Below, piece by piece: positions 33,816 to 39,013 of a DNA stretch of 64,000 bases. The stretch comes from Parvibaculum sp. (GTDB lineage Bacteria; Pseudomonadota; Alphaproteobacteria; Parvibaculales; Parvibaculaceae): positions 572,414 through 636,413 of the forward strand of contig NZ_JAUSBV010000002.1 in the NCBI RefSeq assembly GCF_030651915.1, in the 5' to 3' direction. The position numbers and the translations under genes are program-made. The stretch's first letter is position 1. Each line of letters opens with the position of its first letter. The notes below the pieces were generated by a model, which was not told where the DNA came from, did no database searches, and saw nothing but the letters and a program-made list of their open reading frames with translations.

Positions 33816-33961
33816 CGCGGGGGGTTCCTCACTTGCCGGCCGCTGCGGGCCGGTCTTTAATGTCTCTCATTAGTATCGCCGGGGATGCACCGGGCGCAAG
33901 CAGGCTGTTAGACTTTTGCCAAAGAGCCATCAGGCCACGCACCAACAGGGGAGGACCATCC

Positions 33962-34870
33962 ATGCCGCAGGTCAAGGCGAACGGCATCACTATCGAATAT
34001 GAAAGCTTCGGTCCGGAAGACCGCGACACCGTGCTGCTGATCATGGGGCTCGGCGCGCAGTTGACCATGTGGCCGACCGAGCTCTGCGACGAGCTGGTCG
34101 CGCGCGGCTACCGGGTTGTCCGTTTCGACAATCGCGATGTCGGCCTGTCGCACAAGTTCGACGATCTCGGCATGCCCGACATGACGGCGATTTTCGGTGC
34201 GCTGATGGCCGGCAAGACCGCCACCGCGCCTTATGCGCTGGACGAGATGGCGAAAGACGCCGTCGGGCTGCTCGATGCGCTCGGCATCGACCGCGCCCAT
34301 ATCGTCGGCGCCTCGATGGGCGGCATGATCGCGCAGCTCGTCGCGATCAATAATCCCGAATACGCGCTCTCGCTCACCTCCATCATGTCGACCACGGGCA
34401 ATCCGGCGCTGCCGCAGGGCAAGCCCGAAGCCATGGCCGTGCTGATGACGCCGGCGCCGGAAGGCGACATTCCCGCCGCCATCGAGCGCGGCATGCTCGC
34501 CTGGAACACGATCGGCAGCCCCGGCTACAAAACGGATGATGCGACGCTTCGCGCGTGGGTCACGCGCGACGTCAACCGCTCGCTCTATCCTGTGGGCGTT
34601 GCCCGCCAGATGGCGGCCATCGTCGCCAATGGCGACCGCCGCGCAAAGCTGAAGATGCTCAACCTGCCCGCCGTGGTGCTGCATGGTGCCGACGATCCGC
34701 TGGTGCCGGTCGCGGGCGGCAAGGACACGGCCGAGAATATTCCGGGGGCGGAGCTTCGCGTCATTCCCGGCATGGGCCACGATTTCCCGCTCGGTCTGGT
34801 CGCCACCTTTGCCGATGCCATCGAGGCGGCGGCCAAGCGCGCTTCCAGCGTCTCGCGCGCGGCGGATTGA
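33962..34870 (+). CDS. Alpha/beta hydrolase (tandem copy 1)
   Basis: A 302-residue alpha/beta hydrolase. LLIMGLGAQLTMW provides the oxyanion region, GASMGGM the nucleophile serine, HGADDPLVP the acid and GMGHD the histidine. The start at 33962 follows AGGGGAGG. A close paralogue lies four bases downstream, so the two probably arose by tandem duplication and are translated together. Similar pairs are annotated as aclacinomycin methylesterase or haloalkane-type hydrolases, but the substrate is undetermined. Confidence 0.88.
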   Translation: MPQVKANGITIEYESFGPEDRDTVLLIMGLGAQLTMWPTELCDELVARGYRVVRFDNRDVGLSHKFDDLGMPDMTAIFGALMAGKTATAPYALDEMAKDAVGLLDALGIDRAHIVGASMGGMIAQLVAINNPEYALSLTSIMSTTGNPALPQGKPEAMAVLMTPAPEGDIPAAIERGMLAWNTIGSPGYKTDDATLRAWVTRDVNRSLYPVGVARQMAAIVANGDRRAKLKMLNLPAVVLHGADDPLVPVAGGKDTAENIPGAELRVIPGMGHDFPLGLVATFADAIEAAAKRASSVSRAAD

Positions 34871-34874
34871 GCCG

Positions 34875-35780
34875 ATGGTGCAGAAAATCGTCACGGCCAA
34901 CGGTATCGCGATCAATTGCGAGGATCGCGGTCCGGCGGATGCCACGCCGATCCTTTTCGTCAACGGCTACACCTCGACCCTGATGAGCTGGCCCGAGGAG
35001 CTGATGGAGGGACTTCGCGCCGAAGGCTTCCGCGTCATCCGCTACGACAATCGCGATGTCGGCAAGTCGCAGAAATTTTCCGGCCTGCCGAAGATCGCTG
35101 ATGTCATTGCGGCGGTGCGGGCGGGCAAAAAGCCCGACATGCCCTATAGGCTTGCCGATATGGCGGCCGACGGCATCGGCGTGCTCGATGCGCTCGGCAT
35201 CGGGCGGGCCCACATCATGGGCATCTCGATGGGCGGCATGATCGTGCAGCGCATGGCGATCCATCATCCCGAGCGGCTGACCTCCGTCACCTCGATCATG
35301 TCCTCGACCGGCAATCCCGATCTGCCGGGGGCCAGCGACGACGCCCTGAAAGCCTTGCAGGCGCAGCCGCCGTCCGAGGAGCGCGAAGACGTGATCCGTC
35401 ACCGCATGAAGGGACGGCGCGTCTATCAGAGCCCGGCATATCCGAAAACCGATGACGACCTCTACGCCCTGGTCGCGCGCGAATACGACCACATGTATTA
35501 CCCCGAAGGCGGCATCCGCCAATATGCGGCGATCATGGGCGACGGCTCACGCGTCGAGGCGCTGAGGAAGGTGCGCGTGCCGTTCCTGGTCATTCACGGC
35601 AAGGCCGATCCGCTGGTGCCGCATGCCGGCGGCGAAGACACGGCCAAATCGGTGCCGGGCGCGAAACTCGTCTCGATCGACGGCATGGGCCACGACCTCC
35701 CCGTCGAACTCTGCGCGCAATATGTCGACCTCATCGCCACCCATGCCCGCGCGGCCGAACGCCAGCAGGCGGCGGAGTAG
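34875..35780 (+). CDS. Alpha/beta hydrolase (tandem copy 2)
   Basis: A 301-residue paralogue of the upstream gene, similar along the whole length: both share V-AGI-Y/N-NRDVG, HI-G-SMGGMI and SIMS-TGNP-LP blocks. GISMGGM is the nucleophile, HGKADPLVP the acid and GMGHD the histidine. Starts four bases after the first copy stops. The divergence is considerable (roughly half of the residues by eye), so the duplication is old. Confidence 0.88.
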   Translation: MVQKIVTANGIAINCEDRGPADATPILFVNGYTSTLMSWPEELMEGLRAEGFRVIRYDNRDVGKSQKFSGLPKIADVIAAVRAGKKPDMPYRLADMAADGIGVLDALGIGRAHIMGISMGGMIVQRMAIHHPERLTSVTSIMSSTGNPDLPGASDDALKALQAQPPSEEREDVIRHRMKGRRVYQSPAYPKTDDDLYALVAREYDHMYYPEGGIRQYAAIMGDGSRVEALRKVRVPFLVIHGKADPLVPHAGGEDTAKSVPGAKLVSIDGMGHDLPVELCAQYVDLIATHARAAERQQAAE

Positions 35781-35897: not shown

Positions 35898-35950
35898 CCC
35901 CTCAAACCTCCGCCGAGCCGCCATCGACAGGAATGGTCGCACCCGTCGTG
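35898..35950. repeat. Left 53-bp direct repeat (displaced SDR 3' end)
   Basis: Identical at 51 of 53 positions to 37703-37755 in the same orientation. Read on the minus strand it encodes TTGATIPVDGGSAEV and a TGA stop, that is, the C terminus of the SDR gene to the right, here without the rest of the gene. The two differences (CCG to CCT and GGC to GGT) are both synonymous, so the copy was once part of a working gene of a related lineage. Confidence 0.9.
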
Positions 35951-35993
35951 GTCCAGCTAGTCCCGCCCTCCGATGGCTTTGACGGCGGCAGTC

Positions 35994-36006
35994 GAATGAT
36001 TCATTC
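35994..36006. promoter_or_regulatory. GAATGATTCATTC palindrome upstream of DUF5131
   Basis: A perfect 13-base palindrome 39 bases before the DUF5131 start, in the only non-coding stretch of the cassette. It is a plausible operator or activator site for the two-gene unit; no cognate regulator lies inside the cassette. There is no clear -35/-10 pair around it. Confidence 0.4.
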
Positions 36007-36045
36007 TGAAACCGATTCGCGGCTTTCCGGCCGTGGGAGGCATAC

Positions 36046-36813
36046 ATGGCGGAGTCATCGATCGAGTGGACCGACGCGACCTGGAATCCCGTTGCTGGCT
36101 GTACGATTCTGTCGCCCGGATGCACGAATTGCTATGCGATGAGAATGGCGGCGCGGCTTGAGGCCATGGGAACGCCGAAATATACCGGACTCACGAGGCG
36201 ATCAGGCGGACGTGCGGTTTGGACCGGCAAAGTCAGGCTCGACAAGACCGGGCTTGAACTTCCGTTGAAGTGGAAAAAGCCGCGCATGGTCTTCGTCAAT
36301 TCCATGTCGGACCTTTTTCAGGAGAAAGTGCCGTTTACTTTCATCGAAGCGGTTTGGGATGTGATGGCCCGCTCTCACTGGCACACGTTTCAGATTCTCA
36401 CCAAACGACCTGATCGCATGGCAGAGCTGACACAGAAGCTTGGCGTCCTCCCGAATGTGTGGCTTGGAACAAGCGTCGAGAATGTGGAGTACGCACATCG
36501 ACTCGATAGCCTGCGCGCGTCGAAAGCAGCGATACGGTTTGTCTCGTTTGAGCCCTTGCTCGGGTCCGTCGAGGGCGCCGATTTGTCCGATATCGACTGG
36601 GCCATCGTCGGCGGTGAATCCGGTCCGAAGGCGCGCCCGATGGATAAGGCGTGGGTCGAAGAGATACGGTCTGAATGCCGGCGAAAAGGCACGGCCTTTT
36701 TCTTCAAGCAATGGGGCGGAAAGAACAAGGCGAAGACCGGGCGGGAACTCGACGGTCGCACTTGGGACGAGTTTCCTGATAGACGGGAAGTGCCTACCTT
36801 CGTCGCTATTTAG
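36046..36813 (+). CDS. DUF5131 (phage Gp37/Gp68-type) three-Cys-motif protein
   Basis: A 255-residue protein of the DUF5131 family. EWTDATWNPVAGC begins the signature, with cysteines 19, 26 and 29 in CTILSPGCTNCYAMRMAARL, a Cx6Cx2C arrangement suggestive of an iron-sulfur site as in radical-SAM-like enzymes. Later family blocks are WTGKVRLD, VFVNSMSDLFQ, FQILTKRPDR, WLGTSVENVEY, RFVSFEPLLG, VGGESGPKARPM and FFFKQWGG. The family is common in phages and mobile elements and is described as a partner of TcmP. It starts with ATG after GGGAGG and is followed after ten bases by TcmP. Biochemical function is unknown. Confidence 0.88.
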   Translation: MAESSIEWTDATWNPVAGCTILSPGCTNCYAMRMAARLEAMGTPKYTGLTRRSGGRAVWTGKVRLDKTGLELPLKWKKPRMVFVNSMSDLFQEKVPFTFIEAVWDVMARSHWHTFQILTKRPDRMAELTQKLGVLPNVWLGTSVENVEYAHRLDSLRASKAAIRFVSFEPLLGSVEGADLSDIDWAIVGGESGPKARPMDKAWVEEIRSECRRKGTAFFFKQWGGKNKAKTGRELDGRTWDEFPDRREVPTFVAI

Positions 36814-36823
36814 AGGATGTCCG

Positions 36824-37675
36824 ATGGTGGACGAATCTGATTCCGAAGGAAAATATGAAATAGATGAAGATGGCCTGCCCCGCGAAATCGTGGGTCCATG
36901 GGTCAAAGATAAGCATGCTCGGTTGGAGAAGTATGTCGGGATTAGTCGGTCGGTCCGAGCGATGTTCTCGCGACCTGGTGGCGCAGGAGCCTCCTTTATA
37001 GACCTATTCTCCGGGCCGGGACGCGTTCGGATTCGCGACGAACAAGAGAGCCGCGACGGTGGTGCGCTGGTAGCTTGGCATGAAGCGGTCAACGGCGGCG
37101 CACGTTTCACCCAGGTTCATGTCGCCGATGTGAATCCGGCATTTGCGGACGCCGTGGAACTTCGACTCATAAGAGATGGAGCGCCCGCACTCAAGCAAGT
37201 GGGGGAAGCAGCGGACGTCGTTGATGCCGTTGTCAAAAAGCTCAATCGCTACGCTCTTCACTTTGCATTTCTCGATCCGTATGCGTTGAAAGCGCTCCCA
37301 TTTGACATCATTCGCAAGTTGGCCTCGCTTCAGCGAATGGACATATTGGTACATGTCAGCATCCAGGATTTGCAGCGAAACCTAAGGCGCTACATTGGGC
37401 AAGAGGGCTCTCCGCTAGATTCTTTTGCGCCGGGATGGCGACAGCATGTAGATGTTTCTCGGTCTGACGATTTGGTTCGCGCGAAGTTTCTTGAGCACTG
37501 GAGAAATCTTTTAAAAGCCGAGGGCATGTCTACAACTGAAACTGCGGAGCTTGTCGTAGGGACGAAGAATCAGCGTTTGTACCTGCTGGCATTCGCTGCC
37601 AGACATGATCGAGCATTGGAGTTTTGGGAGAAAATCAGACACCTCGACGGGAATCAGCAAGGAACGTTGCTTTGA
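36824..37675 (+). CDS. tcmP: Three-Cys-motif partner protein TcmP
   Basis: A 283-residue TcmP protein. PWVKDKHARLEKYV is the N-terminal family block; FIDLFSGPGRVRI (58-70), VADVNP (100-105) and FLDPYALK (149-156) have the order and spacing of a Rossmann-type methyltransferase: glycine loop, acidic residue after strand 2, and a DPPY-like motif. I infer a SAM-dependent methyltransferase-like fold; catalysis is not demonstrated. ATG at 36824 after GAGG, ten bases behind the DUF5131 stop. Codon use is AT-richer than the host's. Confidence 0.85.
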   Translation: MVDESDSEGKYEIDEDGLPREIVGPWVKDKHARLEKYVGISRSVRAMFSRPGGAGASFIDLFSGPGRVRIRDEQESRDGGALVAWHEAVNGGARFTQVHVADVNPAFADAVELRLIRDGAPALKQVGEAADVVDAVVKKLNRYALHFAFLDPYALKALPFDIIRKLASLQRMDILVHVSIQDLQRNLRRYIGQEGSPLDSFAPGWRQHVDVSRSDDLVRAKFLEHWRNLLKAEGMSTTETAELVVGTKNQRLYLLAFAARHDRALEFWEKIRHLDGNQQGTLL

Positions 37676-37702
37676 TTTTTCTGTTAGTTGAAATGTTATC
37701 TA

Positions 37703-37755
37703 CCCCTCAAACCTCCGCCGAGCCGCCATCGACCGGAATGGTCGCGCCCGTCGTG
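37703..37755. repeat. Right 53-bp direct repeat (SDR 3' end)
   Basis: The second copy of the direct repeat, 1805 bases from the first. Here it is continuous with the intact SDR coding region and provides its last 15 codons, stop codon and four further bases. Homology between the copies ends abruptly after 37755. Confidence 0.9.
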
Positions 37756-38474
37756 TAAGCGGAAGCGCGCGAGGCGAGGAAGATCGCCACACCCGCCGCG
37801 TCTTCCGGGGTGCCGATGCGGCCGAGCGGATTGCCGGCCTTGATCGCGTCGCCGAAGCTTTCCAGCGTCGCCTTCATCATCTGGCTCGGGAAGGGCCCGG
37901 GCGCGATCGCGTTGACCAGGATGTGTTCGCGCGCCAGGCGCTTGGCCAGATGCCGGGTCAGCATGATGCAGCCCGCCTTCGAGGCCGAATAGGCATAGGT
38001 CTCGAGTTCGGGCGGCGTGATGCCGTTGACCGAGGCCGTGTTGATGATGCGGGCCGGGTTTTCCGCGCTGGCGGACGCGCGCAGCAGCGGCAGCATCGCC
38101 TGGGTCAGGAAGAACACGCCCTTCAGGTTGATGTTCATCACCTTGTCCCAGCCGCTTTCGGAATACTCGTCGATCGGCTCGCCCCAGGCCGCGCCCGCAT
38201 TGTTGATCAGCACGTCGAGCTTCTTTTCGCGCTTCGAAAGTTCGGCCGCGATGCCCTTGATGCCGTCCGTGGTGCCGAGATCGAAAGGCAGCGAAATGCA
38301 GGTGCCTTTCTTCGACAGTTCTTCCGCCAGTTCGTTGCAGGCCTGCGCCTTGCGCGCGGTGATATAGACTTTCGCGCCGTTCTCGACAAAGCCGGTCGCG
38401 ATCATTTCGCCGATGCCGCGCGAGCCGCCGGTCACGAGCACCGTCTTGCCTTCGACGCTGAAGAGATTTTTCAT
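37707..38474 (-). CDS. SDR-family oxidoreductase (RhlG/glucose-dehydrogenase-like)
   Basis: A 255-residue classical SDR. VLVTGGSRGIGEMIA is the cofactor motif, with TARK ending strand 2 (basic residues after it suggest NADPH); LINNAGAAWG, NTASVNG and AYSASKAGC supply the structural asparagine block, catalytic serine and Y-x3-K. The C terminus TGATIPVDGGSAEV is the part duplicated on the other side of the cassette. I start at the ATG at 38474; the upstream frame runs into low-complexity repeat DNA. The transcript ends at the cassette. Confidence 0.9.
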   Translation of the reverse strand: MKNLFSVEGKTVLVTGGSRGIGEMIATGFVENGAKVYITARKAQACNELAEELSKKGTCISLPFDLGTTDGIKGIAAELSKREKKLDVLINNAGAAWGEPIDEYSESGWDKVMNINLKGVFFLTQAMLPLLRASASAENPARIINTASVNGITPPELETYAYSASKAGCIMLTRHLAKRLAREHILVNAIAPGPFPSQMMKATLESFGDAIKAGNPLGRIGTPEDAAGVAIFLASRASAYTTGATIPVDGGSAEV

Positions 38475-38559
38475 CCGAGTTTCCCCCGTTGAGATTTCAA
38501 TGGCCGGGAAGCTAGCGGACGCAGGGGAAATGGGCAATCCCGGCGCAGAGGCAAGAAAG

Positions 38560-38995
38560 GGAAGGGGTTCACGCGGAGGCGCGGCCTGTCCTCCGAAGCT
38601 GCAAAGCAGCGTAGGAGGAAGGCGCGGAGAAGAGAAGGTTTTGCACGCGAAGACGCGAAGAAGGAAGAAAGAAAGGTTTTGCACGCAGAGGCGCAGAGAC
38701 GCAGAGGCGCCGCATCTGCGGCAAGGCACTGCGCCACCTCAACCGGATGCAGAGGCGGAGCCGCAGCGAAGAAAGAGAAGGTTTTCTGGCGCTTCGCGCC
38801 GGAAGACTCTTCGCGCCGAAGGCGCAATCATCGAAACGATGGGGGCATAACCGGGGCCACACATTCGGCCCCTCTGCGTCTCTGCGCCTCTGCGTGAACC
38901 CCTTCTTCTTCGCGTCTTCGCGTCTTCGCGTGAATCCTTCTTTCTTCCTCCTCCGCGCCTCCGCGCCTCCGCGTGCAAAATCTTCCTTCCCTTCC
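38560..38995. repeat. Degenerate purine-rich repeat block with inverted arms
   Basis: About 430 gene-free bases built from variations on CGCAGAGGCGCAGAGACGCAGAG and CGCGAAGACGCGAAG. They appear in direct orientation on the left (38560-38720) and in inverted orientation on the right (38870-38995: CCTCTGCGTCTCTGCGCC, then CTTCGCGTCTTCGCGTC and CCGCGCCTCCGCGCCTC). The arms share further elements such as GGTTTTGCACGCAGAG against CTCCGCGTGCAAAATC. Similar repeats are known from intergenic DNA of many bacteria and are often mis-annotated as proteins. Not a CRISPR: no spacers or fixed unit. Confidence 0.8.
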
Positions 38996-39013
38996 TTCCT
39001 TCCTTCCAAACAA

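Follow-up and report, generated by a model that had tools for sequence, protein, structure and literature searches.

A DUF5131-TcmP cassette inserted at the 3' end of an SDR gene in Parvibaculum, and related pairs between duplicated gene ends at other loci

We describe a two-gene cassette, encoding a DUF5131 protein and a TcmP protein, that is inserted at the 3' end of an SDR oxidoreductase gene in Parvibaculum sp. (contig NZ_JAUSBV010000002.1, positions 572,414 to 636,413; this 64-kb stretch, analysed as a whole, is referred to below as the window). The cassette lies between two copies of the end of the SDR gene, the gene itself is intact, and the observation is a visible case of a recurring arrangement in which pairs of the same two families lie between copies of the ends of other genes. 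We consider it probable that a DUF5131-TcmP cassette was acquired horizontally and integrated in the 3' end of the SDR gene, supplying a replacement for the end that it cut off, and that its two products form a nucleic-acid-modifying, likely anti-phage, pair.

The insertion in the SDR gene and its empty sites

The direct repeats that bracket the cassette (35898-35950 and 37703-37755) agree at 51 of 53 bases, and both mismatches are silent and fall in the third codon position; the initial annotation had described the same two synonymous differences, and a recount gave the same result. Repeat detection in the window places them in family D2, extendable to 56 nucleotides (nt) at 95%, and the 3.5-Mb genome has exactly two occurrences of their 29-nt core pattern, both at this locus. 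The right-hand copy, on the minus strand and continuous with the body of the SDR gene (37707-38474, minus strand), is the true terminus of that gene, with 49 nt inside the gene and 4 nt past its stop codon. The left-hand copy, also on the minus strand and likewise made up of 49 coding nt (stop codon included) and 4 nt more, is an orphan gene end beside an alpha/beta hydrolase gene (34875-35780, plus strand), which is the other neighbour of the empty site. Between the two lies the cassette proper (35951-37702, with no strand of its own), 1,752 nt with a GC content of 55.0% against 64.1% for the whole window. The much lower GC content claimed at the outset thus amounts to about 9 points, and it is the lowest among all 1752-nt segments taken in 50-nt steps across the 64 kb. 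The genes for DUF5131 (Gp37/Gp68 type, 255 aa; 36046-36813) and TcmP (283 aa; 36824-37675), both on the plus strand, are the only recognisable genes in it.

That the cassette is an insertion can be read from its relatives. The SDR gene is present in 37 of 98 relatives (E up to 1e-80), and in five genomes of the same genus the gap between its end and the hydrolase gene, with no cassette, measures about 11 (L006), 72 (L013), 126 (L014), 65-120 (L022) and about 590 nt (L005). These gaps are too short for the pair, hence the cassette is an insertion, and the restored gene end is equally secure: the end of the gene is duplicated and the SDR protein, despite the insertion, has its normal length of 255 aa. 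Both the insertion and the restoration of the target had been proposed in the initial annotation, and the search for empty sites that it recommended is the one reported here. Two other accounts of the locus were rejected. An assembly artefact is unlikely, since the repeat copies differ and sit within a 650-kb contig, and the idea that the orphan is the end of a longer, decayed SDR paralogue, which would have argued against insertion, is ruled out by the abrupt end of the likeness after 49 coding nt.

The pair is sporadic in the order, with TcmP above its cut-off in 7 of 40 genomes. In three genomes of the same genus (G005, G021 and G003) the DUF5131 gene adjoins a peroxiredoxin gene, that is, it has a different location. 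At the peroxiredoxin-adjacent loci L043, L044 and L048, DUF5131 is convergent with TcmP where the contig includes TcmP, and there are no bracketing repeats.

Duplicated gene ends at other loci

DUF5131-TcmP pairs were collected from 385 genomes of the class, 398 of the phylum, 369 of another class in the phylum and 18 of one order, and from 80 named DUF5131 loci. Loci without an adjacent pair were omitted, as was L236, a duplicate of L145, leaving 139 distinct adjacent pairs, no two of which have a 300-nt stretch in common at 90% identity; 10 of them have less than 300 nt on one side. A pair was taken as bracketed if it lay between direct repeats of at least 35 nt and at least 80% identity, and this was the case for 8 of the 139: 6 of 118 in a first set, against 11 of 7032 control windows (from two loci), and 2 of 21 in a second, against 0 of 1214. 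The counts under other rules are as follows. A looser repeat rule again gives 6 of 118 pairs, against 131 of 13218 control windows that come from five loci; stricter rules give 4 to 6 of 118, with 6 to 16 of about 7000 controls; and under a single strict rule 5 of 33 pairs are bracketed, as against none of 3636 windows drawn at random from 32 of these loci, which is more than chance would give. The repeats, 53 bp long in the window, measure 39-172 nt in the other seven cases.

In five of the eight bracketed cases the duplicated sequence is the 3' end of a protein gene, and each time of a different one: the SDR gene in the window, a methylmalonyl-CoA mutase-like gene in L046 (genome G032, of the same family as the window; the last 80-90 nt are copied and the gene order of the pair is reversed), an ABC ATPase gene in L396, a type III Mod-like methyltransferase gene with a restriction gene behind it in L163 (a Nitrospira metagenome-assembled genome), and a prohead protease gene in L098. 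The initial annotation had advised looking for the same pair at gene ends elsewhere, and it is indeed found between copies of the ends of other genes. An empty site can also be recognised for the mutase gene: in G035, G028 and G038 the stretch behind the gene end corresponds to the one behind the orphan in G032, which makes the orphan and the DNA downstream of it the native side in L046. For the ABC ATPase gene, 3 of 18 genomes in the order of G1140 matched, itself included, and the gene end was too distant to align; for the pair in L235 a single distant search, in E. coli, gave no match. In L163 the target open reading frame (ORF) covers no more of the type III Mod model than its C-terminal half, and that gene may therefore be incomplete.

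What these five cases have in common is the point at which the similarity ends. Over the last 45 nt before the stop codon the two copies have 43 identical bases in the window, 40 in L046, 45 in L163, 44 in L396 and 33 in L098; over the 30 nt past it they have 10, 5, 10, 11 and 8, which is near chance. The limit is found also in copies that are near-identical (45 of 45 and 44 of 45), so that erosion is not its cause, and a likeness that stops at the stop codon means that one copy behaves as a replacement gene end. By analogy with integrase islands, such a limit is the mark of elements whose integration site lies within a gene that they then make whole again. A scan at the protein level of 552 gene ends beside the 139 pairs, with 1645 null comparisons, returned the same five 3' ends with scores of 75-154, against a null maximum of 53. 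Of the other entries above that maximum, those in L396 and L163 were ORFs read in other frames of the same repeats and L084 scored 54; no eroded gene end besides the five was found among the 552.

The five elements are uniform in size, with a copy-to-copy period of 1805-1981 nt, and their pairs are far apart in sequence: the DUF5131 proteins are 45-62% identical and the TcmP proteins about 20-39% where aligned, so that the habit cannot be put down to a single recent lineage. No recombinase was recognised among the ORFs inside the window cassette or the four other elements, small ORFs being judged by eye, in agreement with the initial view of an island that is not self-mobile.

Several observations at these loci stand apart from the question of gene ends. 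In L163 (4069-10534) the mod-like ORF and its res gene are parted by the pair, which sits at the stop codon of mod. In L086 (4689-5207) a UmuD/LexA-type S24 peptidase gene lies with the pair inside the repeat-bracketed element, which suggests damage-linked control. In L162 (6504-9720) part of the 3' region of the DUF5131 gene recurs some 3 kb downstream as two collinear pieces (80-85%), and the repeat is either a decayed second copy of DUF5131 or an insertion at its end. Within the window, the hydrolase gene next to the orphan is one of two tandem alpha/beta hydrolase paralogues (33833-35780) that are 72% identical over 192 nt and are kin of macrolide-esterase models, with scores far under those cut-offs. 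Upstream of the SDR gene, 38544-38996 holds low-complexity intergenic repeats of the CGCAGAGGCGCAGAG type with large inverted repeats, and similar stretches also flank the SDR gene in G026.

Predicted enzymes and the link to defence

The DUF5131 protein matches PF07505 over the full profile (positions 1-243 of 243; 328.4 bits, E 3.4e-98), above the gathering cut-off. Many of the neighbours of the window DUF5131 are alphaproteobacterial, which points to the class of the host. Canonical radical S-adenosylmethionine (SAM) enzymes carry their cluster on a CX3CX2C motif; this motif is absent from DUF5131, and the three cysteines C19, C26 and C29, invariant in 42 sequences, are spaced CX6CX2C instead. 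The structural model (predicted local distance difference test score, pLDDT, 90) is a radical-SAM-type barrel, and the first six rows for it in both structure comparisons are spore photoproduct lyase (Z 13.1, root-mean-square deviation (rmsd) 2.9, 193 residues aligned), followed at Z 11 by SuiB, viperin (11.3) and RlmN (11.1). The top 35 rows are all radical SAM enzymes, going by their titles, and other TIM barrels appear from Z 8.9 down. A sequence-profile search with DUF5131 gave no PDB match at E up to 1. We take DUF5131 to be a predicted radical-SAM enzyme with a fold like that of spore photoproduct lyase.

TcmP scores 145.6 bits against TIGR04474, whose cut-off is 53, and its model (pLDDT 91) has a class I methyltransferase fold that is closest to RlmJ (Z 16.1, rmsd 3.1, 209 residues aligned; sequence-profile E 1.1e-5), generic methyltransferases following at Z 13-14. 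RlmJ-like N6-adenine methyltransferases have a catalytic motif of the DPPY type. At positions 151-153 TcmP has DPY, within a consensus FLDPYG in 38 sequences, and the second proline is missing. These comparisons point to a predicted RlmJ-like methyltransferase. Weak matches to the TcmP model in other genomes should be read with care, and were RlmJ itself in one genome examined. Long forms of TcmP, such as that in L045 (2718-4010), carry a C-terminal GMT-like winged helix-turn-helix domain (PF22560), which the short TcmP of the window does not have. The initial annotation had seen, from the letters only, a three-cysteine, iron-sulfur-like protein next to a methyltransferase-like TcmP, and the invariant cysteines and the two models are compatible with this.

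The two families are not new to catalogues. PADLOC lists DUF5131-TcmP families among its defence candidates as PDC-M41/M30, the same two families as adjacent genes, and the window DUF5131 scores 363 bits against PDC-M41B and 331 bits against PDC-M30B; the window TcmP differs in being divergent (best E 1.3e-7), and the defence role of the candidates is a predicted one. Among 100 P. aeruginosa strains, 32 had PDC-M30, and 68.8% of these were phage resistant (PMC10855318), which is a correlation only. The radical SAM mobile pair (TIGR04471) and TcmP (TIGR04474) models of NCBI are a second point of comparison. The window TcmP is a full member of TIGR04474 and DUF5131 is distant kin of protein A of the mobile pair (TIGR04471; 67.4 bits, under the cut-off of 355). 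The partner in that pair is another radical-SAM protein, whereas in the window it is a methyltransferase. No description of DUF5131 or of this mobility was found in the literature searched, which covers few subscription journals.

Neighbours with a link to defence were inspected at three loci. On the Sinorhizobium meliloti plasmid pSymA the pair, a second TcmP and a PDC-S28/Hna gene stand in a row, the name Hna for the PDC-S28-model protein being taken from PMC12445080. The layout there (L256, 5962-11623) comprises DUF5131, a long TcmP, a convergent short TcmP (PDC-M41A) and an 845-aa Hna/PDC-S28 protein, and the double-TcmP arrangement also occurs in L145. On the P. aeruginosa plasmid pKLC102 the pair stands behind a ZorD/DpdE-like helicase gene; at this locus (L257, 1020-7069) a 629-aa protein that matches nothing in Pfam or PADLOC and an SNF2/ZorD-like helicase are followed by DUF5131 and TcmP, all in one direction, and perhaps the four genes are one unit. 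The family matches, the predicted folds, the PADLOC candidates and the neighbours of related pairs make the initial suggestion of a nucleic-acid-modifying or defence unit plausible, and the two proteins would then jointly modify nucleic acid, most likely as an anti-phage unit.

Origin of the duplicated ends and routes of movement

We suggest the following course of events. The cassette would have entered the SDR gene about 49 nt short of the stop codon, bringing with it a replacement gene end that reaches exactly to that codon; with the end so supplied, SDR would still be made as a full protein, and the old end would be left as an orphan beside the hydrolase gene. Integration would proceed by crossing-over between the gene end borne by the element and the host gene, carried out by a recombinase acting in trans or by host recombination of a circularised or one-end-homologous fragment, and the extra copy of the gene end would permit re-excision and re-integration.

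The attached copy in the window equals the allele of G026, the closest relative, over all 49 gene nt, and the two variant bases of the orphan occur together in none of the 14 relatives compared (the first in one, the second in three), so that drift of an unused copy explains the differences equally well. The initial claim that the copies come from working genes of different lineages is accordingly unsupported for the window, on the evidence of the relatives' alleles, and for L046 as well. At the sites that discriminate the copies in L046, attached-like and orphan-like bases number 5:4 in G035, 4:5 in G028 and 5:4 in G038. Two lineages would fit L086 and L098, where the orphan too reads as a plausible protein end and the differences look allelic; no relatives were found that would polarise these copies, the genus of G384 holding one genome.

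Several observations speak against the proposed integration of a carried-in gene end, or against parts of it. No bracketing repeat is seen in 131 of the 139 genome pairs, nor in any of 43 further pairs (41 on viral contigs and two on plasmids; control, 0 of 1477), so that gene-end insertion is either a minority pattern or one whose traces are quickly lost. Three of the eight bracketed cases lack a protein-gene 3' end: in L086 the duplicated sequence is the 5' end of a Xer-like recombinase gene (PF00589), in L089 it is the 3' end of a tRNA-Gln gene with a likeness extending about 22 nt past the tRNA, and in L384 it is an AT-rich intergenic stretch of 40 nt at 85%, with no gene end. The copies give mixed evidence on an attached end brought by the element as against one duplicated on the spot: both copies in L046 look like sequence of the host lineage, neither being clearly foreign, and the differences between copies are mixed in codon position (first/second/third in five cases examined: 0/0/2, 4/1/5, 1/3/4, 5/2/6 and 0/2/1). 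On the side of function, a Foldseek search with the DUF5131 model gave no match at E below 0.001, the best being spore photoproduct lyase at 1.4e-3, and the matches of the window TcmP to the PADLOC models are weak (E 1.3e-7 to 1.3e-3; for PDC-M41 28.6 bits, E 3.2e-7). The survey, moreover, covered one cargo family, and the gene-end habit may not be peculiar to DUF5131-TcmP. Movement, a circular form, modification of nucleic acid and phage resistance are all putative.

Other routes to the same picture have to be weighed against this. When restriction-modification genes insert, they are reported to duplicate a part of the target that is of the order of 100 bp long (PMC3874152, PMC3031569, PMC1643837, PMC3154945; citing Nobusato 2000 and Furuta 2010), and they resemble the cassette as small methyltransferase units with direct repeats of that order and no known mobile element linked to them. 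On this model 50-170 bp of the target would be copied upon insertion, only events that spare the gene would survive, and the copies would drift apart later. The repeat size is as reported (PMC3874152), the copies in L046 are both host-lineage-like, the attached copy in the window is the nearest relative's allele, the copies in L163 and L396 are almost identical, and L384 may be just the duplication wholly between genes that such a model would allow. A random duplication, however, should often continue into intergenic DNA, and all five protein 3'-end cases stop at the stop codon, even those with 45 of 45 and 44 of 45 identical bases. The window unit differs further in having no restriction enzyme: the cassette holds two genes only, with no nuclease domain in the Pfam matches. 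We regard target duplication as decidedly unlikely. The existence of these insertions nevertheless qualifies the initial statement that a two-gene island at gene ends is unusual, restriction-modification genes with target duplications of about 100 bp being already on record (PMC3874152).

Integrase islands at icd, fis and tRNA genes have this anatomy, with an internal target and a replacement end, a target that is kept working, and identity blocks at the gene 3' end whose length, at icd and at tRNA genes, goes up to about 250 bp (PMC10111431). The pairs could thus be remnants or satellites of such islands, moved in trans by an island integrase that targets the gene end in question, and it is in keeping with this that one case lies at the 3' end of tRNA-Gln and that another abuts a Xer-like gene (PF00589), which might even be the recombinase. 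Five unrelated target genes would require five integrases, though, and none was recognised inside the five elements, whose uniform sizes of 1.8-2.0 kb are unlike those of decayed islands and whose distal ends have no common sequence by eye; we think this origin doubtful. Plain lateral transfer by homologous recombination is an explanation that we hold possible, if still on the unlikely side, and it involves nothing specific to the pair: the donor has the pair behind the same gene, and it is joined through an illegitimate far junction or by circularisation and a single crossing-over, both of which are documented in E. coli (PMC3240628). It accounts for the stop-codon limit, provided that the pair comes after the stop in the donor, and for distal ends without a common motif by eye. 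It would need, five times over, a near-identical donor in which the pair had earlier inserted behind the same gene, and junctions would be expected anywhere in the gene, yet every duplicated part is shorter than about 110 nt.

We retain integration with a replacement gene end as the probable course. One may go further and propose, quite tentatively and with more doubt than confidence, that DUF5131-TcmP pairs are a class of minimal mobile elements, about 1.8-2 kb in size, which bring replacement gene ends with them and move without a recombinase of their own, their enzymes being at once the cargo and the means of persistence, a radical-SAM counterpart of mobile restriction-modification units. 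Through this arrangement a candidate defence pair that has received little study is linked to a definite way of spreading, with exact sites for tests, and similarity limited by the stop codon is a sharp signature, searchable around any small defence unit. The long-standing question of how restriction-modification systems and other small gene units spread with no transposase is touched as well. If the two enzymes act together, a radical-SAM protein with the fold of spore photoproduct lyase and a base methyltransferase would point to an unknown anti-phage modification of nucleic acid, to be placed next to the radical-SAM antivirals of the viperin type.

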